Below, one piece after another: positions 38,636 through 62,393 of a stretch of 64,000 nucleotides of DNA. Position 1 is the first letter of the stretch. Each line of letters opens with the position of its first letter. The DNA lies in assembly GCF_007859655.1 (NCBI RefSeq), contig NZ_CP042304.1:4416315-4480314 (forward strand). Reading direction: 5' to 3'. The stretch comes from Devosia ginsengisoli. Lineage in GTDB: Bacteria > Pseudomonadota > Alphaproteobacteria > Rhizobiales > Devosiaceae. The position numbers were made by a program, and so were the translations under genes. The notes beneath the pieces are model-generated. The model saw only the letters and a program-made list of their open reading frames with translations, was not told the DNA's origin and made no database searches.

Positions 38636-38843
38636 TCCCTCTCCCAATCTTCAAACCCGCCGAAGCGGTCATCCGGTTGCCGGAGCGCCTGCATTCTCCC
38701 GAATCCAGGCCACTCTATCCCTTTGTCACGGCATCATTTTTCGCAGAGTGCCTTCTGCGCGATGCCCTCGGTGTCCGCTCGGATTGTAGTGCCAAAATTC
38801 TCGGCGAAAACCGGTTGACGCCCAATATTTATGCTGTTAGCTG

Positions 38844-38871
38844 TTTTTGAACTTGAAGTCAAAGTCAAAAA
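38844..38871. promoter_or_regulatory. 28-bp imperfect palindrome before the TetR gene (candidate operator)
   Basis: TTTTTGA-N2-TTGA-AG-TCAA-N2-TCAAAAA, placed 15 bp before the TetR start and in the gap shared with the divergent MaoC-like gene. TetR-family regulators usually bind such dyads at their own promoter; binding is inferred. Confidence 0.55.
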
Positions 38872-38885
38872 CTGGAGCGGCCAGC

Positions 38886-39560: not shown

Positions 39561-39568
39561 GCAGCCCA

Positions 39569-40717: not shown

Positions 40718-40765
40718 CGCCTCCTCCCGCCCTCTCCTAGCGATACCTGATTTGAAAGGACGTGC

Positions 40766-41740: not shown

Positions 41741-41747
41741 GACACAA

Positions 41748-42944: not shown

Positions 42945-42967
42945 TGCCACCAACCCGATAGTAAGAC

Positions 42968-43438
42968 ATGACCGTAACGACTTTGCCGGACAACGATATT
43001 GAAATTCCCGAACTCGCCATCAAAGCCGGCGATGTGTTTCTCGGGCCATCCAAGACACTGACAGACACCCATTTCACGCTGTTTTCGGCGATCACCAATG
43101 ACATGCATCCGATCCATTACGATCTGGAATATGCGCGGGCCACCCAGTTCGGCCGGCCGCTGGCGCATGGCCTGCTGCTCAATGGCCTGACCGCGCTCGG
43201 CGCCACCGCCGCGGTGGGGCTGATCCATGGTTTCGTCATCGTCGAGCAGGGCTCGCGCTTCCTGGCCCCGGCCATGGTCGGCGATACGCTGCAGCCCAAG
43301 CTCACCATCGAGCGCATCTGGCGCGATGGCGCCCGGATATTCTGCCGGATCAGGACCGAGCTGACCAACCAGCGCGAGGAAACCGTGCTGGAAGGCTTTC
43401 ACCTCTATCGCGTGTTCGACACGCCCGCAGTGCCATGA
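42968..43438 (+). CDS. MaoC-family acyl-CoA hydratase
   Basis: A 156-residue hot-dog hydratase with an intact active site: ITNDMHPIHYDLEYARATQF, GRPLAHGLLLNGLTALGA (Asp and His of the hydratase-2 loop are in NDMHPIH). FLAPAMVGDTLQPKLTIERI follows. It should hydrate an enoyl-CoA made from the CoA ester of the ring-cleavage product. Its stop overlaps the Rid-YciI start (ATGA at 43,435-43,438), so it is translationally coupled. It differs from the MaoC-like gene at 38,189, which lacks these residues. Confidence 0.88.
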   Translation: MTVTTLPDNDIEIPELAIKAGDVFLGPSKTLTDTHFTLFSAITNDMHPIHYDLEYARATQFGRPLAHGLLLNGLTALGATAAVGLIHGFVIVEQGSRFLAPAMVGDTLQPKLTIERIWRDGARIFCRIRTELTNQREETVLEGFHLYRVFDTPAVP

Positions 43439-44160
43439 GCGGATCACCCGAAGAAATTCTCGGTCCGCATGGCTGGACCGACAAATTGACCTATGTGCCC
43501 GCCGTGCGGGTGGGCGACATGGTGCATATCTCGGGCACGACGGCCACCGATGCGCAGCATCAACTGGTGGCGCCGGGCGATATCGTCGGCCAGACACGCC
43601 GCATCTTCGAGAAATTCGAAGAGCTGCTGCAGAGCCTGGGCGCGAGCTGCAAGGATATCGTCGCCACCACCGACTATTACGTTACGGCCGAGAACTATCC
43701 CGGCACCGCCGCGGTGCGCCGGGAATTCCTCGGCAGCCGGCGGCCCATTTCAACCGGCGTGCAGGTGGCGGGACTGTTGCGCCCCGGCGCGCTCATCGAA
43801 ATATCGGCCATTGCCCATGTGCCGCCCCGGCCCGCGCCCAGGCCGGCCGTCTCTGCCAGTCGCCAGCTCTACGCCATCATCCGCTTCGACCGGCCCGATG
43901 CGCCGGCGGACCTGCGGGCGCGGCTCGAGGTCGAGCATCGCCAATATGTCGCGAGCCTCGCGCCGGCGGTAAAGGGCGGCGGGCCGCTGGTCGCCGATGA
44001 CGGCACGACCCCGATCGGCGGCATGATGCTGATCGAAGCGGCCAGCCGGACCGAAATCGAAGCCCTTGTCGCCAGCGATCCCTACCAGCGCGGCGGGCTC
44101 TTTGCCGAGCCCCAGATACTGGCCTGGAACCGCATCCGGTCCGCCCCGCAAGCGGGATAA
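43435..44160 (+). CDS. Rid-family/YciI-like domain fusion protein
   Basis: A 241-residue fusion. N-terminal about 130 residues are a YjgF/YER057c/UK114 (Rid) domain: VRVGDMVHISGTTATDAQHQ, GQTRRIFEKFEELLQSLGAS, TDYYVTAENYPGTAAVRREF, ALIEISAIAHV. The Rid Arg that in RidA lies in PAR(S/T)xV is replaced (RPISTGVQVAG), so it is not a typical imine deaminase. Residues about 142-235 look like a YCII domain (EHRQYVASLAP, GPLVADDGTTPIGGMMLIEA, SDPYQRGGLFAEPQILAW). The fusion suggests a two-step or ring-intermediate handling enzyme. It is coupled to maoC by 4-bp overlap. Confidence 0.75.
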   Translation: MSGSPEEILGPHGWTDKLTYVPAVRVGDMVHISGTTATDAQHQLVAPGDIVGQTRRIFEKFEELLQSLGASCKDIVATTDYYVTAENYPGTAAVRREFLGSRRPISTGVQVAGLLRPGALIEISAIAHVPPRPAPRPAVSASRQLYAIIRFDRPDAPADLRARLEVEHRQYVASLAPAVKGGGPLVADDGTTPIGGMMLIEAASRTEIEALVASDPYQRGGLFAEPQILAWNRIRSAPQAG

Positions 44161-44194
44161 TTCGAGCAAGCCCATGATCCAGGAGGATGGAACC

Positions 44195-44641
44195 ATGACC
44201 CTGCCCAAATACATAATCAGTGCGGCACTCCTCGCGCTGCTCGGCCTCGGCGCCGCTGCCATGGCCACCAATTATCGCCTCGGTTCGCTGCACGACATGG
44301 GGCCGGGCATGTTCCCCATGGTGCTGGGGATCGGCATGGCCGTGCTGGCCGTGCTCTACCTGGTGCTGGCCCGACGTGGCGGCCAGGAGGCCGAGGACAA
44401 GGTGACCTTCAATGATGGACGGCCGCTGGTCGTGATCCTTGGCTCGGTCGTCGCCTTCGGTGTGCTGCTCGATCCGCTGGGGCTGGTGGTCGCGCTTTCG
44501 GTGCTGATCACCGGCTGCTGGATCGCCAATACCGACCGCAAGCTGATCGAGCTGCCCATGATGCTGGGGCTCTACAACGCGATGGCGATTGTCATCTTTG
44601 TGCACTTCCTGAACATTCCAATTCGCCTGGGGCCACTGTGA
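44195..44641 (+). CDS. tctB: Tripartite tricarboxylate transporter small membrane subunit (TctB)
   Basis: A 148-residue protein with four hydrophobic helices (YIISAALLALLGLGAAAM, GPGMFPMVLGIGMAVLAVLY, LVVILGSVVAFGVLLDP, LPMMLGLYNAMAIVIFVHF). The pattern MGPGMFPMVLG is the TctB signature. AGGAGG lies 8 bp before the ATG at 44,195. Its stop overlaps the TctA start (TGATG at 44,639-44,643). It forms the inner-membrane complex with TctA and receives substrate from TctC. Confidence 0.9.
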   Translation: MTLPKYIISAALLALLGLGAAAMATNYRLGSLHDMGPGMFPMVLGIGMAVLAVLYLVLARRGGQEAEDKVTFNDGRPLVVILGSVVAFGVLLDPLGLVVALSVLITGCWIANTDRKLIELPMMLGLYNAMAIVIFVHFLNIPIRLGPL

Positions 44642-46155
44642 TGGAAGGCTTTCAGAACATAGCGCTCGGCTTTGCCACCGCCCTGCAGCCGGAGAACCTG
44701 CTGCTCTGCCTGTGTGGCGTATTGTTAGGCACCTTTATCGGCATCCTGCCCGGCGTGGGGCCGCTGATCACCATCGCGGTGCTGCTGCCGGTGACCTTCG
44801 GCCTGCCGCCGGAAGGCGCAATCATCATGCTGGCGGGCATCTATTACGGCGCCCAGTATGGCGGTTCGACCACGGCCATCCTCGTCAACCTGCCGGGCGA
44901 AGCCTCCTCCGTCGTCACCATGATGGATGGCCATGCCATGGCCAAGCGCGGCCGGGCCGGCGCGGCGCTGGCCATTGCTGCCATTGGCTCGTTCATTGCC
45001 GGTGTCATCGGCACGATCCTGATCGCCGTCTTCTCGCCGGCGCTCGCCTCGGTCGCCATGCAATTCGGGCCGGCCGAATATTTTGCGCTGATGGCCTTTG
45101 CCCTGTGCTGCACCAGCGCATTGGTGCAGGGATCGGTGCTCAAGGGCGTGGTCATGGCCATGCTGGGCGCACTGGTCGGCCTGATCGGCACCGATATCAA
45201 TTCGGGGGTGTCCCGCCTCGATTTCGGCTTCCGCGAACTGTCGAACGGTATCGAATTCTCGGCGCTCGCCATCGGCCTGTTCGGCATTGCCGAAATGGTG
45301 CGGCATCTCGGCGACCCCGAGCCCAAGGGGCAGGTCACCGTCAAGACCGGCCGCATCCTGCCGACGCTGGAGGACCTCAAGGTTTCGATCGGCCCGATCC
45401 TGCGTGGAACCGGGCTTGGCACGCTGATCGGCATCCTGCCGGGGGCAGGGCTCTCCATCAGCAGCTTCGCCGCCTATATCCTGGAAAAGAAGGTGGCCAA
45501 GGACCCCAGCCAGTTCGGCAAGGGCGCCATCCAGGGCGTCGCCGCCCCGGAGGCCGCCAACAATGCGGCGGCGCAGACCTCGTTCATCCCGACACTGACG
45601 CTGGGCATTCCGGGCAGCGCCACCATGGCGCTGATGCTGGGCGCGCTGCTGATCCAGGGCATCACGCCGGGACCGCGCATCATGCAGGAGCAGCCGACGC
45701 TGTTCTGGGGCCTGATCGCCAGCATGGTCATCGGCAACCTGCTGCTGCTGGTGCTCAACCTGCCGCTCGTCCGCCTGTGGGTGAAGCTGCTCGACGTGCC
45801 CTATCGCTGGCTCTGCCCCGCCATCCTGACCTTTGGCTGCGTCGGCATCTATTCCATCGGCTTCGCTGCCAGCGACATCTATATCGCCGCCGCGTTCGGC
45901 CTGGCCGGCTACCTGTTCCTCAAGCTCGACCTCGAACTGGCCCCGTTCATCCTCGGCTTCATCCTGGCCCCGATGCTCGAAGAGCATTTCCGGCGCGCCA
46001 TGCTGCTGTCCCGCGGCGACCTGACGGTCTTCGTGACGCATCCGCTGAGCGCCACCTTCCTTGGCCTCATCGTCGTCCTGATCGGGCTGATCGGCGTGCA
46101 TAAATACCGCTCCTACCTGGCTGACCGGGCGGCTGCGGCGGAGGCGCGGGGATGA
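44641..46155 (+). CDS. tctA: Tripartite tricarboxylate transporter large membrane subunit (TctA)
   Basis: A 504-residue integral membrane protein with about twelve helices. TctA landmarks: LLGTFIGILPGVGPLITIAV, YYGAQYGGSTTAILVNLPGE, LGTLIGILPGAGLSISSFAA, and AAPEAANNAAAQTSFIPTLT with LGIPGSATMALMLGAL. The two repeated GxLPGxG and PGE/PEAANNA motifs identify the family. It carries the sodium- or proton-coupled translocation step. GTG 44,638 is an alternative start. Confidence 0.93.
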   Translation: MEGFQNIALGFATALQPENLLLCLCGVLLGTFIGILPGVGPLITIAVLLPVTFGLPPEGAIIMLAGIYYGAQYGGSTTAILVNLPGEASSVVTMMDGHAMAKRGRAGAALAIAAIGSFIAGVIGTILIAVFSPALASVAMQFGPAEYFALMAFALCCTSALVQGSVLKGVVMAMLGALVGLIGTDINSGVSRLDFGFRELSNGIEFSALAIGLFGIAEMVRHLGDPEPKGQVTVKTGRILPTLEDLKVSIGPILRGTGLGTLIGILPGAGLSISSFAAYILEKKVAKDPSQFGKGAIQGVAAPEAANNAAAQTSFIPTLTLGIPGSATMALMLGALLIQGITPGPRIMQEQPTLFWGLIASMVIGNLLLLVLNLPLVRLWVKLLDVPYRWLCPAILTFGCVGIYSIGFAASDIYIAAAFGLAGYLFLKLDLELAPFILGFILAPMLEEHFRRAMLLSRGDLTVFVTHPLSATFLGLIVVLIGLIGVHKYRSYLADRAAAAEARG

Positions 46156-46232
46156 TCCCCTGACGCCTAGCCGCCCGGCCGACACCCCATCCTGGCTCCA
46201 GGTCGAGCCCCGTTACAGACGAGAACATCTCC

Positions 46233-47888
46233 ATGTCCGAAAAGATCTACACCATGCTGGCCCGTGCCTTCGCCGCCGAGGGCGTCGATGTGTGCTTCGG
46301 CCTGATGGGCGATGGCAACATGCACTTCATGACCACCCTGGCCGGATTGCCTGATGTGCGGGCCTATTTCGTCCGGCATGAGCATTGCGCCTGCACCATG
46401 GCCGCCGGCTTCTCCCGCGCCCGCGATACGGTGGGCGTCGCCTCGGTCACCTGCGGGCCGGGGCTGACCCAGATCACCACGGCCCTGGCCAGCGCCAGCG
46501 CCTCGAATATTCCCATGGTGATCTTTGCCGGCGAAAGCCCGCTGGGCGCGGCCTGGTATGGCCAGCGCATCGAGCAGGCGCCCATCGTCGTGGCCACGGG
46601 CGCGCATTACATTGCCTGCCACAGCGCCAAACTCATGGCGAAATATGTGAGCGAGGCCTTCTTCATCGCGCGGACGCAGAACCGGCCGGTCGTGCTGGGT
46701 GTGCCCTATGATCTGCAGCAGCTCATGGTGGAAGACGACCAGCCCTATCAGCCATCAACCGATTTCATTCCCACGCTGGCGCCCCTACAGCCGCCGCCGA
46801 CCGATGTCGCCGCGGCCAGGGTCATGATCGAAGCGGCCCAGCGCATCGTCGTGCTGGGTGGCCGTGGTGCCCGGCTGGCCGGCGCCGCCGACGCCTGCCG
46901 CGCACTGGCCGCCAGGACCGGCGCGCTACTGGCCACGACCCTGCCGGCGCGCGGCTTGTTCTGCCCAGATCCGTTCGAACTGGGCGTGGCGGGCGGCTAT
47001 TCCAGCGCCGTCACGCGCGACATGATGGCCAAGGCAGACCTGATCATCGCCGTGGGCGCCAGCCTCACCAGCTATACCGCCGATAGCGGCAAGCTCTTTC
47101 CCGGCGCGCGCGTGATCCAGATCGACGAGCACCCTGTTGGCGTCAAGCATGCCCGGCGCACCGCCGACCACTATCTGCGGGCCGATGCACGGCTCGGCGT
47201 CGAGGCACTGATCGAGGCCGTGGGCACCCGCGCCCCGCAGGCCGGATGGCGGGATGCCGAAACCGCCCGCCGCATCGCGCAGGAACCCGCCGATACCCAT
47301 GATTTCCCGGTGCCAGCCGATACGATCGACCCGCGCCGGGCGGTGGCCGCCCTGGATGCGGCCCTGCCAAAGGACTGGGTGCTGGTCAACGGCACCGGGC
47401 ACAACGCGCATTTCTCGGTGCATATGCGCGGGCGCAAGGCCGACGATTTCATCACCATCCGGGAATTCGGCGCCATCGGCAATGCGCTCAGCCAGTCCAT
47501 CGGCGTGGCCGCGGCGCGCCCCGATGCCACCGTGGTGGTGATCGACGGGGATGGCAGCGTGCTCATGCATATGCAGGAGATGGAGACTATCCGGCGCTAC
47601 AATCTGCGCATCCTGGTCTGCATTCTCAACGACGGCGCCTATGGCCCGGAAATCCACCGGCTGCGCGCCCAGGGCCTGAGCGACGCCGGGGCGGTCTTCG
47701 GGCGCGGCGACATGGGCAGGATGGCCGAAGGCTATGGCATTCGCGGCCGGGTGGTCACTGCGGAAGAGCAGATTGCCACCCTGACACAGGCCTTTACCGC
47801 CAGCGAAGGCCCCGAAGTCTGGGACATCCACATCGCCGACACGGTGATCTCCCCCATGACCCGGCGGTCGCTGGTAAAGCACGGCTAG
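46233..47888 (+). CDS. Thiamine-diphosphate-dependent enzyme (acetolactate synthase/benzoylformate-decarboxylase-like)
   Basis: A 551-residue ThDP enzyme. The N-terminal PYR domain has FVRHEHCACTMAAGFSRARD (catalytic Glu) and the ThDP/Mg motif is VVVIDGDGSVLMHMQEMETI followed by ILNDGAYG; the middle domain has IVVLGGRGARLAGAADACRA. Members decarboxylate or ligate 2-oxo acids or cleave 2-hydroxyacyl-CoAs (as oxalyl-CoA decarboxylase does). With a CoA-transferase and MaoC hydratase in the same operon, cleavage of a 2-hydroxyacyl-CoA or decarboxylation of a 2-oxo acid is plausible; the specific reaction is not visible. It ends the catabolic operon. Confidence 0.85.
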   Translation: MSEKIYTMLARAFAAEGVDVCFGLMGDGNMHFMTTLAGLPDVRAYFVRHEHCACTMAAGFSRARDTVGVASVTCGPGLTQITTALASASASNIPMVIFAGESPLGAAWYGQRIEQAPIVVATGAHYIACHSAKLMAKYVSEAFFIARTQNRPVVLGVPYDLQQLMVEDDQPYQPSTDFIPTLAPLQPPPTDVAAARVMIEAAQRIVVLGGRGARLAGAADACRALAARTGALLATTLPARGLFCPDPFELGVAGGYSSAVTRDMMAKADLIIAVGASLTSYTADSGKLFPGARVIQIDEHPVGVKHARRTADHYLRADARLGVEALIEAVGTRAPQAGWRDAETARRIAQEPADTHDFPVPADTIDPRRAVAALDAALPKDWVLVNGTGHNAHFSVHMRGRKADDFITIREFGAIGNALSQSIGVAAARPDATVVVIDGDGSVLMHMQEMETIRRYNLRILVCILNDGAYGPEIHRLRAQGLSDAGAVFGRGDMGRMAEGYGIRGRVVTAEEQIATLTQAFTASEGPEVWDIHIADTVISPMTRRSLVKHG

Positions 47889-48049
47889 CCCGTGCCCGGA
47901 TCGCCCTGATCCGGACGGACAATCTCTGGATGAGCGATGAGGGCGCGGTTCACCTGCCGCGCCTTCACCAATGGCATATTGCAACCAGCGCGGAGGGTGT
48001 TAGGGTCGGGACCAGCGATTTATTTTAGCAATTTTTCATTGTTCATAGG

Positions 48050-51000
48050 GTGTTGCGCGTGCGATTCGATTGTATCCGGCATGCGCCCCTGGTTCGGTCG
48101 CTGAGCAAAGCCGCTTCCATTCTGCTCCTTGGTGCCCTGCTGCCGGTGCTGGCTGTGTCCCAGGCTGCGGCCGCTGCCACCAACGGCTTCCTGACCACAA
48201 GTTTCGTGACGGACGACCTGTGCCTGGCCGGCCCCTACAAGAACAGCGAAACTGCCGATCTGAGCGTCACCTATGGGGCAAATACGGCGGACGACCTGCA
48301 AAGTGTTTCCCTGGGAGTCTGGAACACGCTCGGCGGCATCGGCGGCATTGACGCCGTGTTCCCGCCACCCGGCTCCACCGCGGCGACAGAGACCGTTCAG
48401 CGCAGCTTTTCCACCAACCATATCGTGGGAACGGCGCTGTATCTCTATCTCTATCAGTCGTTTACCGATGCCGGCGATGGACGCTCCTACGATACGCCCC
48501 CAACCGATCCGACCAATGTCCCCTCCGGTTTCGAGGGCTATTATCATCAGACGCTCATCGACATGGCCCTCGACCCGGACTGCATTCCCCGGCCCGATGT
48601 GCAACTGGAATATAGTGGCGCCGTGTCCTCCGGCCCTGCCACCGCGCTCAATGGCCGCGACTTCGGGGATGTGGGACCCGGTGATGTGCCGGCCGTCCGC
48701 AACTTCACCTTGCGCTCGATCGGAATTTCATCGGTCAACGTTACCGAACTCAGGATCAACGGCAGCACCGACTTTGCCGTGAGCCCTTCCGCGCCCGGAC
48801 CGATTTCCACCACCTCGCCCTTTGCGATCATCTTCAATCCATTGACGATGGGGACAAAGACGGCGCAGCTCGAAATCATCAGCGATGCCGTTTCGGGCAC
48901 GATATCCGTGCCGCTGACGGGCAACAGCCTGACGGATACGACAGCGCCGTTGCCGCCGGTCATAACCACGCCCGTGCATGGCTCGACGATCCCGGGGCTT
49001 ACGCCGACTATTGGCGGCACGGCCGAAGCCGGCTCGACGGTAACTGTCGAGATCGATGGCTCGCCGGTGGCTACGGACATACCCGTTGTGGGCACTGACT
49101 GGACCTATACCAGTTCCACGCTCACCGCCGGTCCCCACGGCGCGCGCGCCAGGGCAACCGACGCCTCCGGCAATAGTTCGGCGCTGTCGCCGGAGACGGA
49201 ATTCACCCTCACCCCCTTCGTCTCGACCGTGACGCTCGCCGCTTCGGCGCCGAACTCGACCTTCGGCACACCGGTTACGTTTACCGCCACGGTGGGCGGC
49301 GGTGGCAGCCCGACGGGCAGCGTGCATTTTTTCGACGGCGCGACCGCGCTGGACACCGTCGTGCTATCCGGCAACGAGGCGGCGCTTTCCATTGCCACGC
49401 TGGGCGTCGGTCCGCACAGCATCATTGCCGTCTATGCGGGGGATAGCGGCAACCTGCCCGGCACCTCCGCGCCCGTCACGCATCTGGTCGGGCAGGTCGC
49501 CACCACTGTGGGGATCGCCGCATCCAGCCCCACTTCCGCGCCGGGGCAGGAGGTGACATTCACCGCCACCGTATCGCCGGCCACGGCGTCCGGCACAGTC
49601 ACCTTCCTGATCGACAGCGTCCCGCAAACGCCAGTGGCCGTAGCAGGCGGTATTGCGACATTGCGGACCAGCCTGCTCTCCGACGGCAGCCACGCGATCA
49701 TTTCCCGCTATGACGGCGATACGAACCATGCCGGCTCGGTCACGCCGCCGCTCGCCCATACCGTGCTGGCGCAGGGCTCGGTGATCATCCGGCAGCAGAC
49801 CGAAGGCGGCGACGCCGTGTTCGGCTTCTCGTCACCCACAACGGAACTCAACCTGTCCATTCCCACCTCGGGCGGGCGCGGGGAGAGCCCCGCCGTCGCG
49901 CTGGCGGCCGGAACCTATACCATCACCGCCGATGACATGAGCGGCGCCGGCTTCGGGCTGACATCGCTGGCCTGTTCCGACGCGGACAGCATCATCGACA
50001 TCGCCAATCGCTCGGCCCGGATCGTGCTCGATGCCGGCGAGGCCCTGATCTGCACCTTCATCTCGGTCCAGTCCCGCGACCGCACGGTTCAGCTCATCGA
50101 GGATTTCCTCACCACCCGCGCCGGGCTGATCCTCTCCAATCAGCCCGATATCCAGCGTCGCATCGACCGGCTGAATGGGGTCGTCTCGTCGGGCGGCAAT
50201 CCGGTCTCGTCGCTGATGGGCTATCTGCCCGGCGTCGCCTCGGGCAGCCCGCTCGCCGTCTCCACCTCGCTCGGCGCCATCGACCGGCTGGCCGGCAATG
50301 AAGCCCCCAACGCCCTCGATATCTGGCTCGAAGGCACCTTCGCCATCGTCGATACCGGCCGCCCCGACGGCAATTTCAGCGCCGCCAGCTTCGGCGCGGA
50401 TTACCTGGTCACGCCGGACCTGCTGATCGGCGGCTTCGTGCAACTGGATCACCTGGCGCAGGGCACGGTGCCGGGCGCCGCGAGCATATCCGGAACCGGC
50501 TGGCTGGCCGGGCCCTATGTCACCGCGCTGCTGAACGAGAACCTTTACCTCGACCTTGTGGCGGCCGCCGGCACCTCGCAGAACCGGGTCAGCCCCCTCG
50601 GCACCTATGAGGACGGGTTCGACGCCACCCGCTGGCTGGTCAGCGCCTCCCTGCAGGGGCAATGGCAGTGGGACAACTGGACCTTCAGCCCGCGCGGCCG
50701 GCTCAGCTATTTCGAGGAAACCACCCAAGCCTATACCGACAGCCTGGGCGTGGGCATTCCCTCGATCACCGCCGGCCTCGGCCAGGTCGCAGTAGGTCCC
50801 GCCATCTCCTATCGCTACACGACCGGCGGCGATGTGGTCATCGACACCGGCCTGCGCTTCGAAGGCGTGGCGGAGCTGACCAGGACCATTGCAGGCTTCG
50901 GCTTCGACAACCTGCACGGCCGCATCGAAGGCACCATCGACCTGTCCCTGCCATCAGGCGCCAGATTCGGCCTCTCCACCGCCCTCGACGGCATAGGCGG

Positions 51001-51055
51001 CAACACCGACAACGCGACCAGCGCAAAAGTCCGGCTCAGCCTGCCGATGCAATAA
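48050..51055 (+). CDS. Autotransporter with bacterial Ig-like repeats
   Basis: A roughly 1001-residue protein with a signal peptide (ASILLLGALLPVLAVSQAAA). Passenger: an N-terminal domain of about 150 residues; a choice-of-anchor D-like region (LNGRDFGDVGPGDVPAVRNF, PLTMGTKTAQLEI); a Big-type Ig domain (STIPGLTPTIGGTAEAGSTV); then two Ig-like Big_3_5 repeats (TFGTPVTFTATVGGGGSPTG; SAPGQEVTFTATVSPATASG), at about residues 390-480 and 484-570. After a linker the barrel begins near residue 757 (ALDIWLEGTFAIVDTGRPDG) and ends ATSAKVRLSLPMQ. It is probably an adhesin. The start is uncertain (GTG 48,050, TTG 48,053 or GTG 48,059). It ends 57 bp before the integrative-element att site. Confidence 0.87.
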   Translation: MLRVRFDCIRHAPLVRSLSKAASILLLGALLPVLAVSQAAAAATNGFLTTSFVTDDLCLAGPYKNSETADLSVTYGANTADDLQSVSLGVWNTLGGIGGIDAVFPPPGSTAATETVQRSFSTNHIVGTALYLYLYQSFTDAGDGRSYDTPPTDPTNVPSGFEGYYHQTLIDMALDPDCIPRPDVQLEYSGAVSSGPATALNGRDFGDVGPGDVPAVRNFTLRSIGISSVNVTELRINGSTDFAVSPSAPGPISTTSPFAIIFNPLTMGTKTAQLEIISDAVSGTISVPLTGNSLTDTTAPLPPVITTPVHGSTIPGLTPTIGGTAEAGSTVTVEIDGSPVATDIPVVGTDWTYTSSTLTAGPHGARARATDASGNSSALSPETEFTLTPFVSTVTLAASAPNSTFGTPVTFTATVGGGGSPTGSVHFFDGATALDTVVLSGNEAALSIATLGVGPHSIIAVYAGDSGNLPGTSAPVTHLVGQVATTVGIAASSPTSAPGQEVTFTATVSPATASGTVTFLIDSVPQTPVAVAGGIATLRTSLLSDGSHAIISRYDGDTNHAGSVTPPLAHTVLAQGSVIIRQQTEGGDAVFGFSSPTTELNLSIPTSGGRGESPAVALAAGTYTITADDMSGAGFGLTSLACSDADSIIDIANRSARIVLDAGEALICTFISVQSRDRTVQLIEDFLTTRAGLILSNQPDIQRRIDRLNGVVSSGGNPVSSLMGYLPGVASGSPLAVSTSLGAIDRLAGNEAPNALDIWLEGTFAIVDTGRPDGNFSAASFGADYLVTPDLLIGGFVQLDHLAQGTVPGAASISGTGWLAGPYVTALLNENLYLDLVAAAGTSQNRVSPLGTYEDGFDATRWLVSASLQGQWQWDNWTFSPRGRLSYFEETTQAYTDSLGVGIPSITAGLGQVAVGPAISYRYTTGGDVVIDTGLRFEGVAELTRTIAGFGFDNLHGRIEGTIDLSLPSGARFGLSTALDGIGGNTDNATSAKVRLSLPMQ

Positions 51056-51112
51056 GGGTGAGCTTTCGCGATGATTCTCGCGCGGGCGTCGGTCCATAAT
51101 GCGGGAAGAAAA

Positions 51113-51136
51113 TGGTGCTGCCGGACAGGATTGAAC
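51113..51136. repeat. attL (24-bp direct repeat, left end of element)
   Basis: 24 bp identical to the tRNA-Thr 3' end at 62,319-62,342. It lies 57 bp after the stop of the Ig autotransporter. Confidence 0.9.
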
Positions 51137-53005: not shown

Positions 53006-53671
53006 GTGCGTAAGTACGTTACCTACACTCGCGTCAGCACCAAGGATCAAGGCCGTAGTGGACTCGGCCTGGAGGCCCAACAGCGTGATATCCAACTCTT
53101 CCTCGACAACTACTCTGAGGTGCCTTGGGAGATAGTCGGTGAATTTCAGGATGTGCAGTCTGGCGGCGATGATGACCGCCCGCAGCTTCGCGCCGCCTTG
53201 GAGCAGTGCCGCCGCATCGGGGCAGAGCTGCTGGTAGCAAAGTTAGACCGCCTCAGTCGCAAGGTATCATTCATTGCCCAGCTCATGGACGACCCAAAGT
53301 TACGACTTCGGGTCGCCACCATGCCTCAAGCCGACAAGTTTCAGCTTCATATCTATGCCGCTCTGGCCGAACAGGAGCGCGACTTCATTTCCGCCCGCAC
53401 AAAGGCCGCTCTAAAGGCCGCTAAGGCTCGTGGCAGGGCATTGGGCGGGCTTCGCGATACCACGATGAAGCGGAACGCCGCTATCCAACAGAAAGCGGTC
53501 ACAGAGGCTAAGACTCTTCTCCACATCATTGCGCCCATGCGCGACGCTGGAAAGACACTAGCCGCTATTGCTGATGCCCTGGACAAAATGCAGGTTTCAA
53601 CCTCAAGGGGCGGCAAGTGGACGGCGAAGCAAGTCTCTAGGGTCATTGGTAGGGCAGGTCAGTTGGAGTAG
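53006..53671 (+). CDS. Serine recombinase (resolvase/invertase family)
   Basis: A 221-residue small serine recombinase. The catalytic Ser is in YTRVSTKDQGRSGLGLEAQQ, the Arg/Asp region in LLVAKLDRLSRKVSFIAQLM, and the E-helix in QLHIYAALAEQERDFISART. The C-terminus has a helix-turn-helix-like end (LAAIADALDKMQVSTSRGGK, WTAKQVSRVIGR), as in resolvases. The start is GTG 53,006, with AGAGGAG 8 bp before it. It is distinct from the tyrosine integrase and may resolve or invert a segment of the element. Confidence 0.88.
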   Translation: MRKYVTYTRVSTKDQGRSGLGLEAQQRDIQLFLDNYSEVPWEIVGEFQDVQSGGDDDRPQLRAALEQCRRIGAELLVAKLDRLSRKVSFIAQLMDDPKLRLRVATMPQADKFQLHIYAALAEQERDFISARTKAALKAAKARGRALGGLRDTTMKRNAAIQQKAVTEAKTLLHIIAPMRDAGKTLAAIADALDKMQVSTSRGGKWTAKQVSRVIGRAGQLE

Positions 53672-53713: not shown

Positions 53714-54148
53714 TTAGCGGTAGAGTGTGCCAACCTTACTCACGAGCCCCAACAAGGTCTTGTACTCACTGTTGAACACCGGCTGCCCACCGTGCCCTAC
53801 CATGTAGAGATGGTATGACTTCTTGTCGCCAAACAAGCCCCGGCCCTTCGACACCTTGAAGATCAAAAACTCTGATGCCTGATCGACTAGCCAAAGCGGC
53901 ATCCAGCCACCGGACATGGCAGCTCTAAGCAGCTTCAGCTTCTCCTCCGGGCTTGACTCCGCCATTGGCTTCGCCGCTTCCCAAGGTGCACACCACAACA
54001 CCGCTCCACGGCCATCTTGCTCACGCCAGCCCTTGATGGCTTTGAGCATGAATGATGCTTCGTCGTCATCAAACGGCATGATCGGCAGCATTCCGATGAT
54101 GCTGTCCATCGCCTGAAGTTGGTGCTCAGCGTTGGCGAGGGAAGTCAT
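53714..54148 (-). CDS. Hypothetical element protein
   Basis: A 144-residue protein: a helical N-terminus (NAEHQLQAMDSIIGMLPIMP), acidic FDDDEASFMLKAIKGWREQD, and a C-terminal part with MPLWLVDQASEFLIFKVSKG and SYHLYMVGHGGQPVFNSEYK. No family recognised. AGGATC precedes the ATG by about 5 bp, within a 12-bp sequence that is repeated inverted 84 bp upstream. It is on the same strand as the ATPase gene, 235 bp after its end. Confidence 0.55.
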   Translation of the reverse strand: MTSLANAEHQLQAMDSIIGMLPIMPFDDDEASFMLKAIKGWREQDGRGAVLWCAPWEAAKPMAESSPEEKLKLLRAAMSGGWMPLWLVDQASEFLIFKVSKGRGLFGDKKSYHLYMVGHGGQPVFNSEYKTLLGLVSKVGTLYR

Positions 54149-54382: not shown

Positions 54383-56199
54383 CTAGACATCCTCGTCTAC
54401 AAGCACGTCCTGTTTCACGGTTCTAAGAGCCATACCCATACGGCGCCGTGCGTTTTGCAATGCGTCGAGATAATCGTCTGCTGCAAGACTCAAACTCTCG
54501 GAAGTATGTGCCTTTGCGACATCCTCGGGCTGCCATTCCCTGTTCAGCTGTTTTGCCAAAGCATACACCACCGCACGCCCGACGCGCCCGACGATTGTGC
54601 GTTCGGCCAACTCCTTCGCAAGATTGCGAGTGATTTCTGGGTCTGGATGTGAAGCGTATTCCAGCTCAAGTTGCTCTTGCATAGCGTGGATGGCGGGATA
54701 GTTCATGTTCACGAAAAGCTGGCCTGCCTCTCTATAGAACTTGGCGGCCCGTCCCTTCAGACCCTTCTCCTGGATGTCGGCTTCGTCGCGTAGCAGTGTA
54801 ATTTCGGGCGCTCGCTCAGCGTTGAGTGACATGGACGCACGTTTGGCACCCGAGGGCACCGCCAGCAGATCGTTGAAGTCAAACCGCGTTTCAGAGGTCT
54901 CTTTTTCTCCTCCCGACCCGTCTGAGCGCTCTGGGGCCATCGCCGTCCCCTGACCCCGATCAACCGCCAGGTCTCCGTTTTGCGCCAATGAAGGGCTTTC
55001 TGAGCGGACCCGAAGACTGTTGAGCAGCTTCTGCAATTCGTCCCGAATTTCATCCGTGCCGCCAGAATCTGATGGAGCGAAGGAGTTAATAGCATCTAGC
55101 AGCCACTGAGGCCGGTGGTCGCGAACTAGGTCGGCGAAGTCTCTAACGTCAACCTGACGCTGGTCTCCGTCCCTATATCGAAGGAACTGGCGGTATGCTT
55201 CAGGAAGAACGAGCGCACCATCGGGAAGCTCGACGTGAACGGAGATATGCTTTGCACCAAAGGGGATGCCGTACAAAGGTGCGTCGAGTGTCCACTGACG
55301 TCCACGCTTTAGAGAATAAAGCTCGTCACGATGCACTACAGCGCAGGTGCTGACATCCGTCGTTATGGCTCCGGTGACAGAGCGATTGTGGCCGCTGTTC
55401 TCACGGGGAGGATCGAGGAAATAGTGAACAATGATTCCGTTCTCGCATAGAACGCTTTCGGACTGTCCTATCGGATATGCCCGATCAGGGATGGTCCTGA
55501 AGAGCCGGTTGCCATCGAGCTTATGCGTGCCAGGCTGGAACTTAACCTGGATGCCGGGCGGCAGTCGGTAGAAGCGATGATAGAGGTAATCCGCCAGCCA
55601 TTGTCCGTTTTGCGCCGGATTGCCATCGTATGGGTCACGCACCGTATTCTGATCGGGGCGATTGCCGAAAAGCACCACTTCTGTCCAATCGCTACTGAGG
55701 TCGTCGCCATCAGCTAGCGCGGCCTCTGTGACGTCAAAGACCTCTTCTAGTTCGCCTTGTTCATTAAGCCGTCGAATACGCCCATAAACACCGTCTCGTT
55801 GACCCAACAGCACCTCGCTGACCACGCCGCCACGGTTTGATCGGTAACGAAGTCCATATTTGTTAGATGGCAATGACGCTACCTTGGCCCCCATACCGAA
55901 GTTTCGATCCAAACCCATGTCTTTTCCGATTGACGCCGCAATGTCGCACATGGAGTGGAGCTGTTCGCTGGTCATCCCCGGCCCGGTGTTTCGAATTGCC
56001 AGCTTTTGAACGTTGCCCAATTCCGAGAGCGCGGATGTCGATAGATTGGGCGCCGTCTGGCGCTTGGACAGCCGCCTCGACCGCGTTCATGAACAATTCT
56101 CGGATCATCATCGTCTTTGGACAACGATCAATGGTCGTAGTCACCAAAAATGCTTCGTCTGCTACACGTAGGGCACTAACTGTGTTGGAGTTCGGTCAT
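54383..56199 (-). pseudogene. MORC/Hsp90-like GHKL ATPase of the candidate defence module, frameshifted
   Basis: An ATPase of the GHKL (gyrase/Hsp90/MutL) superfamily. One frame (about 56,187-56,035) reads ALRVADEAFLVTTTIDRCPK and MIRELFMNAVEAAVQAP, which contains the N box (Glu-x3-Asn). The other (56,020-54,383, 545 residues) carries the G1 box RNTGPGMTSEQLHS and the G2-like NFGMGAKVASL, then an S5-like region and a long helical tail (KELAERTIVGRVGRAVVYAL). Joined, the ATP site is complete. The break lies near 56,030, between N and G1 boxes. A second break near the start (ATG 56,199, TGA/TAG in frame) makes the exact start unsure. It follows the DGQHR gene by about 60 bp. Confidence 0.7.
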
Positions 56200-56259
56200 G
56201 GCAATTCAACCCTGAGAGGAGAACTAGGGGCCAGCCTGAAAGCCAGCCCCAACTGACTA

Positions 56260-57735
56260 TTATGCAACCGCCAAGAGATCGGACGGCCTACGAGATGGGA
56301 GGTTCAATTTCCAACGGATCATGTCGGCAAGTATGGGGTAAATATCGTTATGCTTCGCACCAAAGCGCATCACATCGCCCTGATAGGAGCCGACGTCTCG
56401 ATTTGCATCGGTGGTGACCGCTCCTCCATCGGGCAAGTAGTCAGACAGCCCCTCTAGTATGGGCGCGTCCCGCTCTTCGTCGCTCATCTCGTAGTACTGC
56501 CACATCGGATTGGCATGGCTGAAATCGGCGTCATTAAGATTGTCCAAAAATTTGGAGAAGAGCTCATCTCCATTATCCGGACGACGATTTGAGTAAAGCA
56601 GATCGAAAGTGATCTTGGCCAGCGCCTTTAGGACGACTGGTTGAGCCGCAACGGTTTTGTTCCGCGCCTGATTGTCGCCGAAGCCAGGAATCTTAGTGAT
56701 TGCTACCCAAAGGCTTTCGATGTGAGCTTCCCGCTCATCAACGATTGCAGGCGTTGCAGATTTAACATTCGTCTTGTTGAGGAAGGCGATGGCACAAATG
56801 TTTGCCAAATCCTTGGTGTTTAAAGAGCCATCGTCAGCCGACCAGTCCTTGATCTCTTTGTCAGTGGAGCGCACCACGTTCTCTGCGATGAGGCGAGACT
56901 TTATGAAGTTGTTGATTGGGTTTCCCAGATCAAACTCTGTGGCCTGCGAGACATTGACCTTCTTTCCGAGATTGTTGAGATCGTGGAAAAGCTGTCGTTC
57001 CTGGTCGATGTCCAGCCCGAGATGAATCTCGATCTTCACGGTGGCAAAGGAGCGGGCGCAATCTAGCGCATCCTGCCAAACCACCATCTCTTCGTTCGTG
57101 ACGTCCCCTTTGATGTCAACGACTCCGCCACGTGCCGGATACTTCCCGCTGCGTGTAATTTCCTTAAGCCACTCCATGACCATCTCTCCGCCGTACCGCC
57201 GATGCTGGCCATCAATGACCCACCAGCGAAATGACCTGGGCATAAAGATGCGGAATCCAACGGTGACTCCTCGCTCGGTAGTTGCACGATCAGCCCGGAC
57301 AGAGGGTTTCGCTGGATCAATGTCGCGGATGTTGGCGACTACCGGCTGGATGGCGCAGTAAGGTTTAGCTCCAAGCATCTTTTGCACTTGAGCGAACGCC
57401 GCTGGGACATCCTGTCCTTTGAGAGTGCGTCTAGTGATAGCGGCATTCACAAGGCCCTTGAGCATGAAATGGCCCAGAGCTTTCGCGTGAGCAGTGTCGA
57501 GCTTCCGCTGTGCGACTTCGCCCTTCTCTATGTCGTTGGCAATTTCGGAAAGCTCAACGAACTTGGCCAAAGGCAGGTCGGTGGACCATGTGACATTGCC
57601 CAGGTTGTAACCCATCAACACATTGATCTCTTCTTCGTCGCTGCCGAAGCCGATCATTTCGGAAAGGCTGACAGATTCATTGGCCGTTTTGGCTGAAACC
57701 ATCGCCTTGGGCATACCGTCGTTATTTCCAAACAT
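56260..57735 (-). CDS. DGQHR-domain protein (DndB-like)
   Basis: A 491-residue protein with the diagnostic core WWVIDGQHRRYGGEM at about residue 173-187, then QERQLFHDLNNLGKKVNVSQ and TEFDLGNPINNFIKSRLIAE, as in DndB and other DGQHR/ParB-like defence proteins. DndB is a repressor and helper in phosphorothioate DNA modification. No DndC, D or E homologue is in the window, so it is an isolated DGQHR protein. The ATG at 57,735 has AGGAG 6 bp before it. It heads an operon with the GHKL ATPase and is divergent from the helicase-nuclease gene. Confidence 0.82.
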   Translation of the reverse strand: MFGNNDGMPKAMVSAKTANESVSLSEMIGFGSDEEEINVLMGYNLGNVTWSTDLPLAKFVELSEIANDIEKGEVAQRKLDTAHAKALGHFMLKGLVNAAITRRTLKGQDVPAAFAQVQKMLGAKPYCAIQPVVANIRDIDPAKPSVRADRATTERGVTVGFRIFMPRSFRWWVIDGQHRRYGGEMVMEWLKEITRSGKYPARGGVVDIKGDVTNEEMVVWQDALDCARSFATVKIEIHLGLDIDQERQLFHDLNNLGKKVNVSQATEFDLGNPINNFIKSRLIAENVVRSTDKEIKDWSADDGSLNTKDLANICAIAFLNKTNVKSATPAIVDEREAHIESLWVAITKIPGFGDNQARNKTVAAQPVVLKALAKITFDLLYSNRRPDNGDELFSKFLDNLNDADFSHANPMWQYYEMSDEERDAPILEGLSDYLPDGGAVTTDANRDVGSYQGDVMRFGAKHNDIYPILADMIRWKLNLPSRRPSDLLAVA

Positions 57736-57833
57736 AGCAATCTCCTGTTCCTGGATTGAGGATTGCAGCATAAATTACGCCTGTCAAGCTGCATCAAAAC
57801 ATCCCTGGGATATTTAATTGTGACTCCTGGCTA

Positions 57834-57861
57834 TTGACGGCAATTTCCTGGAGGCTATCTT
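57834..57861 (+). promoter_or_regulatory. Sigma70-type promoter for the helicase-nuclease gene
   Basis: TTGACG (57,834-57,839), 16-bp spacer, TATCTT (57,856-57,861), about 75 bp before the ATG at 57,936, in the divergent gap with the DGQHR gene. Confidence 0.45.
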
Positions 57862-57935
57862 GCAGCCAGGCCGTTGGGTCCGGACTGGGCTTTGTGGCGA
57901 ATGAATTTGAAGAATGAATATGTGAGGAGGCGCCA

Positions 57936-60409
57936 ATGGCCCTGGATTTCGGAAAACTAAACGCGGGAACAACCGTCAAGCAGACCGACCCTCGAAAGAT
58001 TTTCACTACTCTAAAACGGGATGCAAAATTCAAGCGCCCGTTGGACGAACAGGCCGACGTGCTTGATGCTTGGTATGGTCGGCGAAGTGCCTCAGACCTG
58101 ACGATCAAGATGAACACAGGCGGAGGTAAGACCACCGTCGGCCTTCTATGCCTTCAAAGTTCTCTGAACGAAAATGTTAAGCCCGCTGTCTACATCACTC
58201 CTGATAACTTTCTAGTTCGGCAAGTTCTGGATGAGGCAGTTCTTTTGGGAATTGCGGCGACGGACAACGAGAAGGACCCTGATTTTTTAGCCGGTCGCTC
58301 TATTTTGGTGGCAAACGTTCACAAGCTCATCAACGGAAGGTCAGTCTTTGGCGTCGGGGAACGAAAGATTCCAATCGGGGCGATAGTGATTGACGATGCC
58401 CATGCGTGTCTTTCGGTCGTTTCTGACCAGTTTTCTCTTCGCTCATCTGAGGGGAGTCCTGTCTACGACGGCCTGCTGGAAATGTTCTCCGGGGATCTGG
58501 AAAACCAATCACCAGCCGGGCTGCTGGACGTTCGCGAGTCGGACCCCAATGCGGTCTTGGCGGTTCCGTATTGGGCCTGGCAGGCGAAGGGTGGCGATGT
58601 CCTGGCTTTGCTTCACGCAAATCGCGCAGGAAAAGACCTTGAGTGGCGCTGGCCCCTGCTTAGCGACTGTATCCCGCTCTGCACCTGCATTTTCGGGGCA
58701 GGTCGAGTTGAGGTGGCACCTAGATTCATACCGATTGACCGAATACCGTCCTTCGCTGGCGCCAATCGACGTATCTATATGACGGCAACGCTGGCCGATG
58801 ATACAATTCTGGTCAGTCACTTTCAGGCTGATGGCGCCGAGGTCTCTAAGCCAATCAGACCAAAGGGCGGCGGCGACATAGGTGACCGTATGATACTCTC
58901 ACCTCAGGAGATCAATCCGGAATACACTGTAGACGAAGTCAAGGGGCTTGTTGCTCGAATTGCAGATGATCTCAATGTTGTAGTTATTGTTCCGTCAAAG
59001 TCACGAAGCGAGTACTGGAGTGATGTTTCCGATCAGACTCTGGACAAGGATAGCATTCACGATGGTGTCGCCAAACTGCGCGGTGATCACGTCGGGCTCA
59101 CGGTGCTGATCAACAAGTACGACGGCATTGACCTCCCAGGTGAGGCTTGCGAGCTGCTGGTCATCGACGGCCTGCCAGAAGTTCATGGCTTGGCCGAGCG
59201 CCTTGAAATGCTACTTATGGACGGCACCAAGCGGCAACTTGTTAGGCAAGTGCAGCGCATCGAGCAGGGGATGGGGCGTGGGGTGCGGTCAAGCGATGAT
59301 CATTGTGTAGTTTTGCTCTTGGGGGGAAACTTACGCAGCGTCTTCATGACCCCGAGGCAGAAGAAATGTTCTCCTCAGCTACTCGCGCTCAGATTAGCTT
59401 GGGCAAAGAAGTTGCGGCCCAGGCCAGGGGTAAGCCCTTGAAAGAATTGGAGCCGATACTCGATCTCTGTCTTGAGCAGGACGATCAGTGGGTTGAGGCC
59501 GGACGAAACGCGGTTGTAAATGCACCAGCAATGGTCGGGGGCCATATTGACCCAAATGTTGTGCTGTTACGAGAAGCTTTCGACGCCGCTCGTATCGGTC
59601 GATATGACGTTGCTGTAACTAAGGTACAGGATGCAGTAGCAGCTACCACTGAGCGTTTGGCCAAAGGTTATCTCAAGCAACAGCTTGGTGAGTACACCAA
59701 TTTTAGCAATGCGGCGTCGGCTCAGGAAATCCAACTGTCGGCTCTATCTCTGAACCCGAGATTGCTAAAGCCTCTCGCTGGTGTGACCTACAGTAAGCTG
59801 AGCGCTCCAGCGTCGGGTCAGGCAGGGTCTTCTGCGCAATTTATGACACGCTTCCTGGAGGGCAATGACCTTGTGATTTGGGTCAATGGCCTGTTGGATG
59901 ACCTTCGGTGGGGGGAAGAGGTTACGAATCGTTTTGAGGCAGCGGTCCGTGATCTCGGCTCATTTCTGGGTTTTGGCTCCCAGCGACCGGAAGATGAAGT
60001 TGGGCGAGGTCCGGACAATCTGTGGGCACTGGGCGAGCTTCGCTACCTCGTGATCGAGTGCAAGAGCGGTGCGACTGGAGCCGATAAGATCTCGAAAAAA
60101 GATACCAATCAGTTGAACGGTTCCATTGTCTGGTTTTCGAAAGAGTATGACAGTTCCTGTACGGCGATCCCATTGATGGTTCATCCCAAGACCGTATTCG
60201 AGAACGCTGCGTCTCCTCATGAAGACATTCGAATTGTCCAGGACAGTGGTTTACAGGCCCTAAGAAGTGCGGTGCGAGCCTTTTCCGTGGCTCTTGCCAC
60301 TTCAGGCGGATTTAGAGACGCGAAGGAAGTGGAGCGACAACTAGACCATCACAGACTCTCTGCTGAGGCTATCGTGGGGCTTTGCACTGTGGCGCAGGGC
60401 GCGAAGTAG
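57936..60409 (+). pseudogene. SF2 helicase with C-terminal PD-(D/E)xK nuclease domain, frameshifted
   Basis: The helicase frame (57,936 to about 59,320) has Walker A NTGGGKTTVGLL near residue 58, Walker B VIDDAHACLS near residue 153, a motif III-like YMTATLADD, and motif VI RIEQGMGRGVRSSDD near residue 445. It breaks at a run of six G (59,316-59,321). The next frame (to 60,409) continues smoothly (GGKLTQRLHDPEAEEMFSS) and ends in a nuclease-like domain: EDEVGRGPDNLWAL and LGELRYLVIECKSGATG, the Asp and Glu-x-Lys pattern of PD-(D/E)xK enzymes. Adding one G gives a continuous protein of about 824 residues. GAGGAGG lies 5-6 bp before the ATG. An effector role is likely. Confidence 0.8.
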
Positions 60410-60462: not shown

Positions 60463-62239
60463 CTATGGCCTCCATCCCTCATCTTCGACTTCAAGTCGTG
60501 GCAGCTTGTTGATCTCGCGATCTAGAACCGCTGGAGGCCAGTCACCGTACCCCTCGCGGGCGTCAGCGGTGTTCCGGCTACCCATCATGTAGTCACGGGC
60601 TTCCTTGTCCATTCGGCAGTCGCGGCTTCTCGTGGTGAACAGATGACGCCAAGCATGATTGGGCCGCCCGAGGGGGCGCGACAAGGCCAACTTCCTCCCT
60701 AACCCACTCGGACACGCGTTCGGCGGCATCCTTGGCTCTATGCCTACCGTCGAGCTTCGTAAGGTCGGTGTCATCCTCGTATGGCTCGTAAAACAGCGGC
60801 CCATCACCAACCTGCGTTATGAGATCAAGAAATCCCATTTCGATGAGGTGCTGATGAATGCCGACAGCCCACGCCTTCCCGCTCTTTGTGTTGCCGTCCA
60901 GCGGGGTGATAATGAGATGGGGAACGCCACCCTCTTTGCTCAGATGTCTTCCCCGAAACTGGGTAACCTCAGAAGCCCGCAAGCCGGTGTAAGCCAATAT
61001 CCATGGCACCCAAAAGAGCGCCCGCTTGTGCGGTGTCGAGAGCGCCTTGGAGGAGCCGTCAAAGGTCGCCTTCAGAATCTGCACAGCCTCTGCCTCGCTC
61101 CATCCCTTCGACCTCATAGGTGCCGGAGAAGGGCGTGTGTCACGGATGTTGGAGGCCGCGTTACTGGGTAGGTCAAACTCTTTCACGCCGTGAGCCAACA
61201 CCGATTTGACCGCAGAGATGTATGAGTCATCTATGGTCTTCGGCAGCAAGGTAGGCGCGGTCTGCTCCATCAAACTGTCGCGCCATCTGCGCACATCCGA
61301 CTTGGTGACCCGCGCAGCATCATCGTGACCCAGGAATGCAATGAACTTTCCGAGGTAGCTGCGGGTCGTTGAGACCGTCTTGGGCCTTATGCTCGTGGTG
61401 CGGGCCTTGTGGTTGAGTAGTTCCGTCAGTGAGAGATAGTCGCCCTGTGCGGGAGCAGGTGAGGAGGTAGCTGCAAACGAGGGAGCGCGGTCCAGCGCCT
61501 CGATTGGCCCATAGTCGCCTCCTTGCCTTGCCTCGATGCCCCGCCTGGCGTTGACCATATGGTTTGCCATAGCGAAATTCACCAGACGCCGTGTTGCGGG
61601 ATCAGTATGGACGCTCCGAGTCTTCATTGCTGCGTCAGTGTCGGCACCGTGTATAGCTTCGAGCGCCGTGGCGAAATCGACCCCAATGATCGACGCGTAT
61701 TCAGGATGCTGCCGAAGAAGCTGCACGCCTAGCACCCGTCGCTGAGCGGGTGTTGCTTTCAGGTGCGCTTTAAGGTTGGCCTTCAATGACTCCAGCTGCT
61801 CGGTGGACATTCCCGACACCATCTTCTGCAATGGGGCTTCATCAAGGTCATCGAGCGATGGAATAGGAAGAGGCGGGGACACCTCGAACGGATCATCTTC
61901 ATGCTGAGCCAAAAATGCCCGAGCATGATCTGCTGCCAGCCCATTAATTTGCTTATTGTCGAGCGGCTGGGGGCCTTGACGCAGGACATCTCGCCACCGC
62001 TGCCATTTCGTCTCCTGCTCGGAGGCGAACTTCAGGTAAAGCTGTTCAGCTGGCCGCTGGTCTTTGGTGCCAAGCGACCTATGGACTTCCCTGGTGACCT
62101 TGATGCCAAATTCTTTCAGGCGGTCTCGCGCTGCCCAGAGATCAGGCGGCGTCGCTTTCCGGTAATAGAGGATGCCAGTCTTCGGATGTGCCCACGGTCC
62201 CGCCATCAGCCACCTTTTACGTGCTGTGAATCGTGACAT
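60463..62239 (-). pseudogene. Tyrosine recombinase/integrase (DUF6538 N-terminus), frameshifted
   Basis: The first frame (62,239 to about 60,690) has a DUF6538-like N-terminus (KTGILYYRKATPPDLWAARD), a SAM-like core-binding domain, and the catalytic Arg in WILAYTGLRASEVTQFRGRH. The second frame (to 60,463) carries the H-x-x-R box NHAWRHLFTTRSRD and the tyrosine region TADAREGYGDWPPAVLDRE. The break lies near 60,685 (CGACAAGGCC on the plus strand), and one base less gives about 591 residues. It lies beside tRNA-Thr, 80 bp from attR, which is the normal place for the integrase of such elements. Confidence 0.85.
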
Positions 62240-62318: not shown

Positions 62319-62342
62319 TGGTGCTGCCGGACAGGATTGAAC
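62319..62342. repeat. attR (24-bp direct repeat inside tRNA-Thr)
   Basis: Identical to 51,113-51,136; it is the 3' part (T arm and acceptor end, with CCA) of the tRNA-Thr gene, read on the plus strand. Confidence 0.9.
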
Positions 62343-62393
62343 TGTCGGCCTCCCCCTTACCAAGGGGGTGCTCTACCACTGAGCTACGGCAGC
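62319..62393 (-). tRNA. tRNA-Thr (GGT anticodon), CCA encoded
   Basis: On the minus strand it begins GCTGCCGTAGCTCAGTGGTA; the anticodon arm is CCCCC-TTGGTAA-GGGGG with anticodon GGT (reads ACC/ACU), the T arm contains GTTCAATCC and the acceptor is GCTGCCG/CGGCAGC, followed by A and an encoded CCA. All four arms pair. It is the target of the integrative element, which is inserted at its 3' end. Confidence 0.95.

Follow-up and report, generated by a model that had tools for sequence, protein, structure and literature searches.

The 64,000-nucleotide stretch of the Devosia ginsengisoli genome analyzed here (contig NZ_CP042304.1, positions 4,416,315 to 4,480,314 of the forward strand; hereafter the window, to whose numbering all coordinates refer) contains an 11.2-kb integrative element at a tRNA-Thr gene, whose defence-type cargo in our judgment likely falls into two independent parts: a helicase-nuclease of the Hna family and a module of two genes encoding a DGQHR protein and a GHKL-S5 ATPase. 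This reading builds on the gene content, the repeat bounding the island, homology to Hna, the recurrence and re-pairing of the DGQHR and GHKL genes, an alternative partner of the ATPase, and predicted folds. The original prediction had joined the same genes into one undescribed three-gene defence system. All of the genes it described are present at the positions it gave and are of defence-linked kinds, while the joint system did not hold up, the helicase-nuclease never being found beside DGQHR or GHKL outside the window in the loci and genomes examined. Comparison with described systems returned Hna as a relative of the helicase-nuclease, largely refuting the trio, and gave no such match for the pair; Hna is already known, and a description of the DGQHR-GHKL pair was not found in the literature searched (open-licence papers).

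The helicase-nuclease gene (57936..60409, + strand) consists of two pieces in different frames, 57936-59441 and 59303-60409, and stands head to head with the DGQHR gene. Both pieces match the PADLOC model PDC-S28, with E values of 1.6e-200 for the first and 2.6e-109 for the second. The first piece carries the superfamily 2 (SF2) helicase motifs NTGGGKT (Walker A) and DDAH (DExH-type box), the second the conserved PDN...ECKSG motif (PD...ExK). A family profile (A1) of 16 homologues, from which the window pieces were left out and to whose first member these are 77% identical, matched a single PDB sequence (10uj_A) from position 3 to position 815 of 824 (E 8e-158). According to the source of these structures, the PDB entries 10UJ and 9YKJ represent Hna, and its Lys729 is required for cleavage (PMC13381803). 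The ECKSGA lysine of the window's family aligns with this residue and is present in the window. Among 120 homologues listed out of 3420 found, 111 comprise at least 800 amino acids, and every one of these 111 carries all four motifs tested, the Walker A and DExH-type box of the helicase included. Judged by its sequence, the window protein is a member of the Hna family, and its C-terminus, correctly anticipated in the original prediction, is a PD-(D/E)XK nuclease, the corresponding domain being solved in the relative Hna (PMC13381803). PDC-S28 presumably stands for the Hna family; an excerpt on Bacillus cereus counts it among the PADLOC candidates that coincide with systems of another program, the passage not saying which (PMC11811056).

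Hna of Sinorhizobium meliloti is reported as a single-effector abortive-infection system, a 3'-5' exonuclease on single-stranded DNA that is restrained by ATP and stimulated by a phage single-stranded DNA-binding protein (PMC13381803). By homology, the window's family member may confer the same abortive-infection activity. It resembles Hna in its full-length similarity, the SF2 helicase motifs, and the PD-(D/E)XK domain with the catalytic lysine. It may also act without a constant partner: none was seen, neighbours vary in the three plasmid regions read, and the systematic partner count covered DGQHR and GHKL. It differs in that the copy in the window is broken into two frames and in that a close homologue of it (P0002) is only 33% identical to a site on S. 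meliloti megaplasmid records, a site not confirmed as hna.

In the three-gene system proposed originally, DGQHR would sense or mark DNA, GHKL would clamp it and the helicase-nuclease would cut it. The head-to-head gene arrangement in the window speaks for such a trio, as does a 2008 study in which about 70% of the prokaryotic MORC neighbourhoods contained a gene for an SF2 helicase (PMC2292703). Neighbourhood counts point the other way. Within 79 loci anchored on GHKL (78 genome contigs and one viral contig; flanks reaching at most 10 kb, and less where contigs are short) no member of the Hna family was detected, and neither DGQHR nor GHKL appeared in any of the 22 loci anchored on Hna (15 viral, three from 250 matching plasmid records, and four genome stretches). 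The latter set is redundant, collapsing to 12 clusters at 90% and nine at 70% helicase identity, and includes the close Hna subfamily in L123, L124, and L131 only. Likewise, Hna was absent from 16 DGQHR-anchored loci without GHKL. On genome level, each of the three profiles matched four of 385 genomes of the class (E 1e-40), with more than one profile matching solely in the window's own genome; among 189 genomes of the order, Hna was found in two (E 1e-100) and GHKL in four (E 1e-60), again overlapping only in the window's own genome. Because all three families are rare (about 1% of genomes), the genome counts have little power and the neighbourhood counts carry the argument. On the latter, with weak support from the genome samples, the trio as one system was rejected; considering also the single-effector mode of Hna in S. 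meliloti (PMC13381803), we regard it as very improbable.

While the trio was not found elsewhere, the DGQHR-GHKL pair recurs. DGQHR adjoins GHKL in eight of the 79 GHKL-anchored loci, i.e., in three Bradyrhizobium, two Mesorhizobium, and two Rhizobium loci (among them L072 of Bradyrhizobium sp. dw_411 and L066 of Mesorhizobium ventifaucium) and on one viral contig, so that the operon-like arrangement noted originally is a recurrent two-gene unit. In seven of these eight loci DGQHR lies upstream of GHKL on the same strand, the two genes being divergent in L019; the DGQHR frame of L015 is short (323 amino acids). In the tree of the DGQHR proteins, L015 and L019 join L027, L066, and L081 (support 100/99), whereas in the GHKL tree L015 joins L014 and L022 (100/100) and L019 sits far from all others on a long branch of unsure position. 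The gene trees disagree; partners were thus exchanged without losing their adjacency, a pattern that favours a working pair. An all-against-all comparison of the eight pair loci and part of the window revealed no conserved third gene common to them, with two partial exceptions, namely a protein of about 120 amino acids directly downstream of GHKL in the Bradyrhizobium loci L014 and L022 (85%) and a match of L022 to L072 at 34%. In bulk, 122 neighbours were scanned, yielding tallies only, and 20 proteins from the pair loci were then scanned individually. Near the pair, L019 contains type I restriction-modification genes as well as DarT- and DarG-like ones, L014 contains PD-T7-1, and L015 gave a broad AAA-ATPase match.

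The ATPase is also found with a second type of partner. In 23 of the 79 loci (e.g., upstream of the ATPase in L003, L008, and, in Sphingobium sp. OAS761, L075), the start of GHKL adjoins the end of a same-strand gene for a protein of about 70 amino acids (RTNKALEAI..IGNLSNRQ), and this protein never shares a locus with DGQHR (0/79). Two members of this small family yielded no Pfam or NCBIfam match. Within the 32-row GHKL clade holding the window, the upstream slot is taken by DGQHR in nine cases (window included), by the ~70-amino-acid protein in 22, and by neither in one (L025). On the GHKL tree, which leaves out three loci whose matches are short or broken, the DGQHR label needs four changes, at least three of them forced by starred branches. 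The small protein also stands beside more distant GHKL genes (L139, L158, and L162) as well as in L160 and L161. Since it replaces DGQHR in related ATPases, the constant component is probably the ATPase, with an exchangeable adaptor encoded upstream. GHKL loci with neither partner are mostly labelled Acetobacteraceae or Roseomonadaceae, where the ATPase may have another role. As a side observation, on plasmids of Priestia, Planococcus, and Ensifer the ~70-amino-acid protein precedes proteins of 619-800 amino acids that have no Pfam match, are unmatched by the GHKL profiles, and display GHKL-like motifs by eye only; in Priestia and Planococcus, restriction genes lie close to it.

The DGQHR gene (56260..57771, - strand; homologues point to a start near 57735) matches the Pfam DndB family PF14072, scoring 78.1 bits against a cut-off of 29.1 (E 8e-22), and with 41.3 bits it stays under the 58.85 cut-off of NCBIfam TIGR03187. 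The DGQHR motif is present in 120 of 120 homologues, and no further Pfam domain, e.g., a fused HNH nuclease, was found in the window protein. At an E value of 0.01 no PDB chain matched the family profile, and Foldseek gave no match under E 0.001 for an AlphaFold2 (AF2) model of the homologue P0242; a second-look aligner gave a ParB/Srx-like core, which in combination with the motif suggests that the protein probably has a ParB/Srx fold. Within the whole genome it is the only DndB-family gene (E 0.001). The original prediction had excluded Dnd modification genes, and this stands for DndC and DndD, whose models had no match in the whole genome (E 0.001), with the restriction that control genomes also gave none over cut-off and that DndA and DndE were not searched. 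As no DndC or DndD was found in the genome, membership in a Dnd system was rejected. For DndB itself, a role as an ATP-dependent negative regulator has been claimed (PMC10853773), and the DUF262/DGQQR domains of GmrSD, SspE, BrxU, and GrwAB are taken as nucleoside triphosphate-dependent sensors of modified DNA (PMC12137116, PMC4619093). The window protein shares with the DndB/DGQHR family and these DUF262 sensors the invariant motif and, judging by the second-look comparison, probably the ParB/Srx-like core; it differs from them in that neither DndC nor DndD was found in the genome, in having no other Pfam domain, and in its GHKL partner.

Relatives of DGQHR were further observed in other surroundings. 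In the viral contigs L109-L116 they occur without GHKL in phage contigs, preceded by a similar-looking protein of about 95-133 amino acids, and another relative is located on a 5.8-kb plasmid. On the Polymorphobacter plasmid p29334-4 (L125, 10001-13228), DGQHR lies directly upstream of Cap15, a cyclic-dinucleotide receptor (PF18153, E 1.2e-35), and a 375-amino-acid protein without Pfam match, which places it in another, putative defence-type operon.

The GHKL gene on the - strand (54383..56196, upper end approximate) is likewise read in two frames, with a main piece at 54383-56020 and an N-terminal piece matched up to 56186; a whole homologue of 604 amino acids matches the window with residues 5-65 and 50-603 in the two frames. 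The window pieces alone gave no Pfam GHKL match, whereas HATPase_c matched 20 of 20 whole homologues at an E value of 0.01 or better, the one match shown lying below the curated cut-off. No PDB chain matched the GHKL profile at E 0.01. An AF2 model of the homologue P0122, combined with a fold search, indicated a GHKL plus S5 fold over residues 12-375, and a GHKL-S5 ATPase fold is therefore predicted for the window gene. In motif II of Hsp90 and gyrase (DxGxG), an Asp binds adenine; at this position (P0122 residue 70) all 48 sequences of alignment A5 contain Asn, while E34, N38, G101, and G103 of the other GHKL motifs are invariant in the 48 sequences. Of the originally assigned label MORC/GHKL, the GHKL part agrees with the predicted fold, and MORC is too narrow: a regular expression for GhXhhpXXRhl, the S5 motif of MORC (PMC2292703), matched one of 120 homologues.

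MORC and paraMORC ATPases have been placed in restriction-modification neighbourhoods with helicases and nucleases (PMC2292703), and such relatives have a record in restriction-modification settings (PMC2292703; PMC8011034). The family described here resembles them in its predicted GHKL and S5 module, its sporadic and mobile distribution, and its occasional proximity to defence genes (PMC2292703); it is set apart by the near absence of the MORC S5 motif, by the Asn for Asp in motif II, and by a partner that is DGQHR or the ~70-amino-acid protein instead of a constant helicase or methylase. The pair is best read as a variant among the paraMORC-type modules, in which a sensor of ParB/DndB fold would control a GHKL-S5 clamp. 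A further parallel is VcSduA, a Shedu nuclease whose N-terminal GHKL domain is proposed to control the defence output (PMC12137116). In VcSduA the nuclease is fused to GHKL. The ATPase described here is instead partnered by DGQHR, and no nuclease was recognised in its C-terminal part.

For the favoured element with two cargoes, the following mode of action can be put forward. The first cargo, an Hna-family SF2 (DinG/XPD-like) helicase fused to a PD-(D/E)XK nuclease, would act as in Sinorhizobium, by homology. In the second, DGQHR, as a ParB/Srx-like and probably nucleotide-binding protein, would recognise a DNA feature of the invader in a manner likened to the DGQQR/DUF262 sensors of SspE, BrxU, and GrwAB. 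With DNA feature and nucleotide bound, it would license the dimeric GHKL-S5 ATPase, which would close on DNA or remodel a bound protein-DNA complex. The output might be a block of invader transcription or replication, or a nuclease activity of the ParB/Srx type. By analogy to these sensors and ATPases, the pair may limit phages. More tentatively, and with less confidence than in the element as such, we propose that the altered-pocket GHKL-S5 ATPase (Asn for Asp) could be what stays constant in a recurrent defence module of two genes, in which an exchangeable adaptor (the DGQHR ParB-fold sensor in certain lineages, the ~70-amino-acid protein in others) would direct the clamp to different signals of invader DNA.

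Several results weigh against the favoured reading. The pair is a minority state: among the 385 genomes, three others have DGQHR and three others GHKL, none having both; the seven plasmid records with GHKL and the 13 with DGQHR do not overlap; GHKL was found in none of the 16 further DGQHR-anchored loci; and 48 of the 79 GHKL loci carry neither DGQHR nor the small partner. This state, in combination with the redundancy of the Hna loci, slightly lowers our confidence, and the rarity of all three families limits the power of the missing co-occurrence. No nuclease was recognised in the pair, and motif II bears the invariant Asn. PADLOC matches GHKL weakly in one of 20 homologues and DGQHR only as DndB; 13 of the 20 individually scanned neighbours in pair loci had no PADLOC match, specific matches coming from L014 and L019 only. 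The phage contigs with DGQHR but without GHKL are also counted here.

Some of these points lend themselves to another explanation, in which the pair serves a function of the mobile element (regulation, maintenance, or entry exclusion) and is not anti-phage, DGQHR being a DndB-like, nucleotide-tuned repressor and GHKL a remodeller. It agrees with the DGQHR relatives standing alone in phage contigs and on the 5.8-kb plasmid, with the regulator role claimed for DndB (PMC10853773), and with the settings of three pairs: L081 is a viral contig, L072 has a phage-type integrase nearby, and L027 a weak Mob_Pre match that stays under its cut-off. It fits less well with the restriction-modification record of the MORC and paraMORC relatives (PMC2292703; PMC8011034), with the restriction genes near the ~70-amino-acid partner in Planococcus and Priestia, and with the neighbours of the pair in L019 (type I restriction-modification and DarTG-like genes) and in L014 (PD-T7-1). 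We consider such a function rather unlikely, and a defence role of the module the better account.

The tRNA-Thr island named in the original prediction could be delimited. It is bounded by an exact 24-bp direct repeat, read as the attachment repeat, whose left copy (51113..51136) duplicates the 3' end of the tRNA-Thr and whose right copy (62319..62342) lies within the tRNA-Thr gene (GGT) itself, the integration site at 62319..62393 (- strand; ARAGORN). A tyrosine recombinase gene (integrase; 60463..62239, - strand) adjoins the tRNA gene, and its C-terminus is in another frame (60463-60810), as deduced from matches of the homologue in the relative G771 in two frames. The guanine-cytosine content is about 51-59% within the island versus 61-68% in the flanks. 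At the other end, a serine resolvase (53006..53671, + strand; PF00239, E 5e-27) is followed by a hypothetical protein of 144 amino acids (53714..54148, - strand), downstream of GHKL. The latter had no tblastn homologue (E 1e-5) in 21 compared loci, including all eight pair loci, and is island cargo outside the pair.

Comparison with relatives provides further insight into the site. In the relative G757, sequence matching window position 38180 sits 46 bp from the tRNA-Thr, and 38181-62318 is absent at that site; therefore the window probably carries two tandem inserts in the tRNA-Thr, with 38181-51112 probably being the second one; it spans about 13 kb and contains the large frame at 48050-51055. 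Out of seven relatives compared, one (G771) has a related integrase and resolvase at the same tRNA-Thr. Its integrase is 37% identical over the main part and 62-67% at the C-terminus, its resolvase is 68% identical to that of the window, and the cargo between the two genes differs. The scaffold accordingly seems able to exchange its cargo. The cargo in G771 (L152, 2254-11326) includes a 549-amino-acid protein resembling a PD-(D/E)XK nuclease by eye and an RNase H-like protein.

The state of this copy has to be considered separately. Set against whole homologues, the genes of GHKL, helicase-nuclease, and integrase each fall into two frames, so that of the island's four largest genes three are broken. 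The DGQHR frame is open over its full length. Due to these splits, this copy as read is probably not functional. Decay of the island is the preferred reading of the split genes, and assembly error may be an alternative. As a rough control, the window outside of the island was compared with 16 mechanically defined frames of G757, shadow frames among them; 14 matched in one frame and two in two. Carried to its end, decay would make the island a graveyard, its neighbourhood having no function beyond the chance insertion of fragments. The three split genes would suit this view; on the other side stand the whole DGQHR gene, the recurrence of the pair elsewhere with open frames, and the possibility that the breaks are assembly errors, considering the two control frames matching in two frames outside the island. 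A graveyard appears improbable, more so than a mobile-element function and less so than the trio, and the integrative element with two separate defence-type cargoes remains the reading we favour.

As a consequence of this analysis, one candidate three-part system is removed and its helicase-nuclease is placed in a known family. What remains is a recurrent, testable DGQHR-GHKL pair with an interchangeable small partner. This pair could link the prokaryotic MORC-like ATPases to DNA sensors of the ParB/DndB type and could thereby give a simple two-gene model for the role of such ATPases in bacteria.

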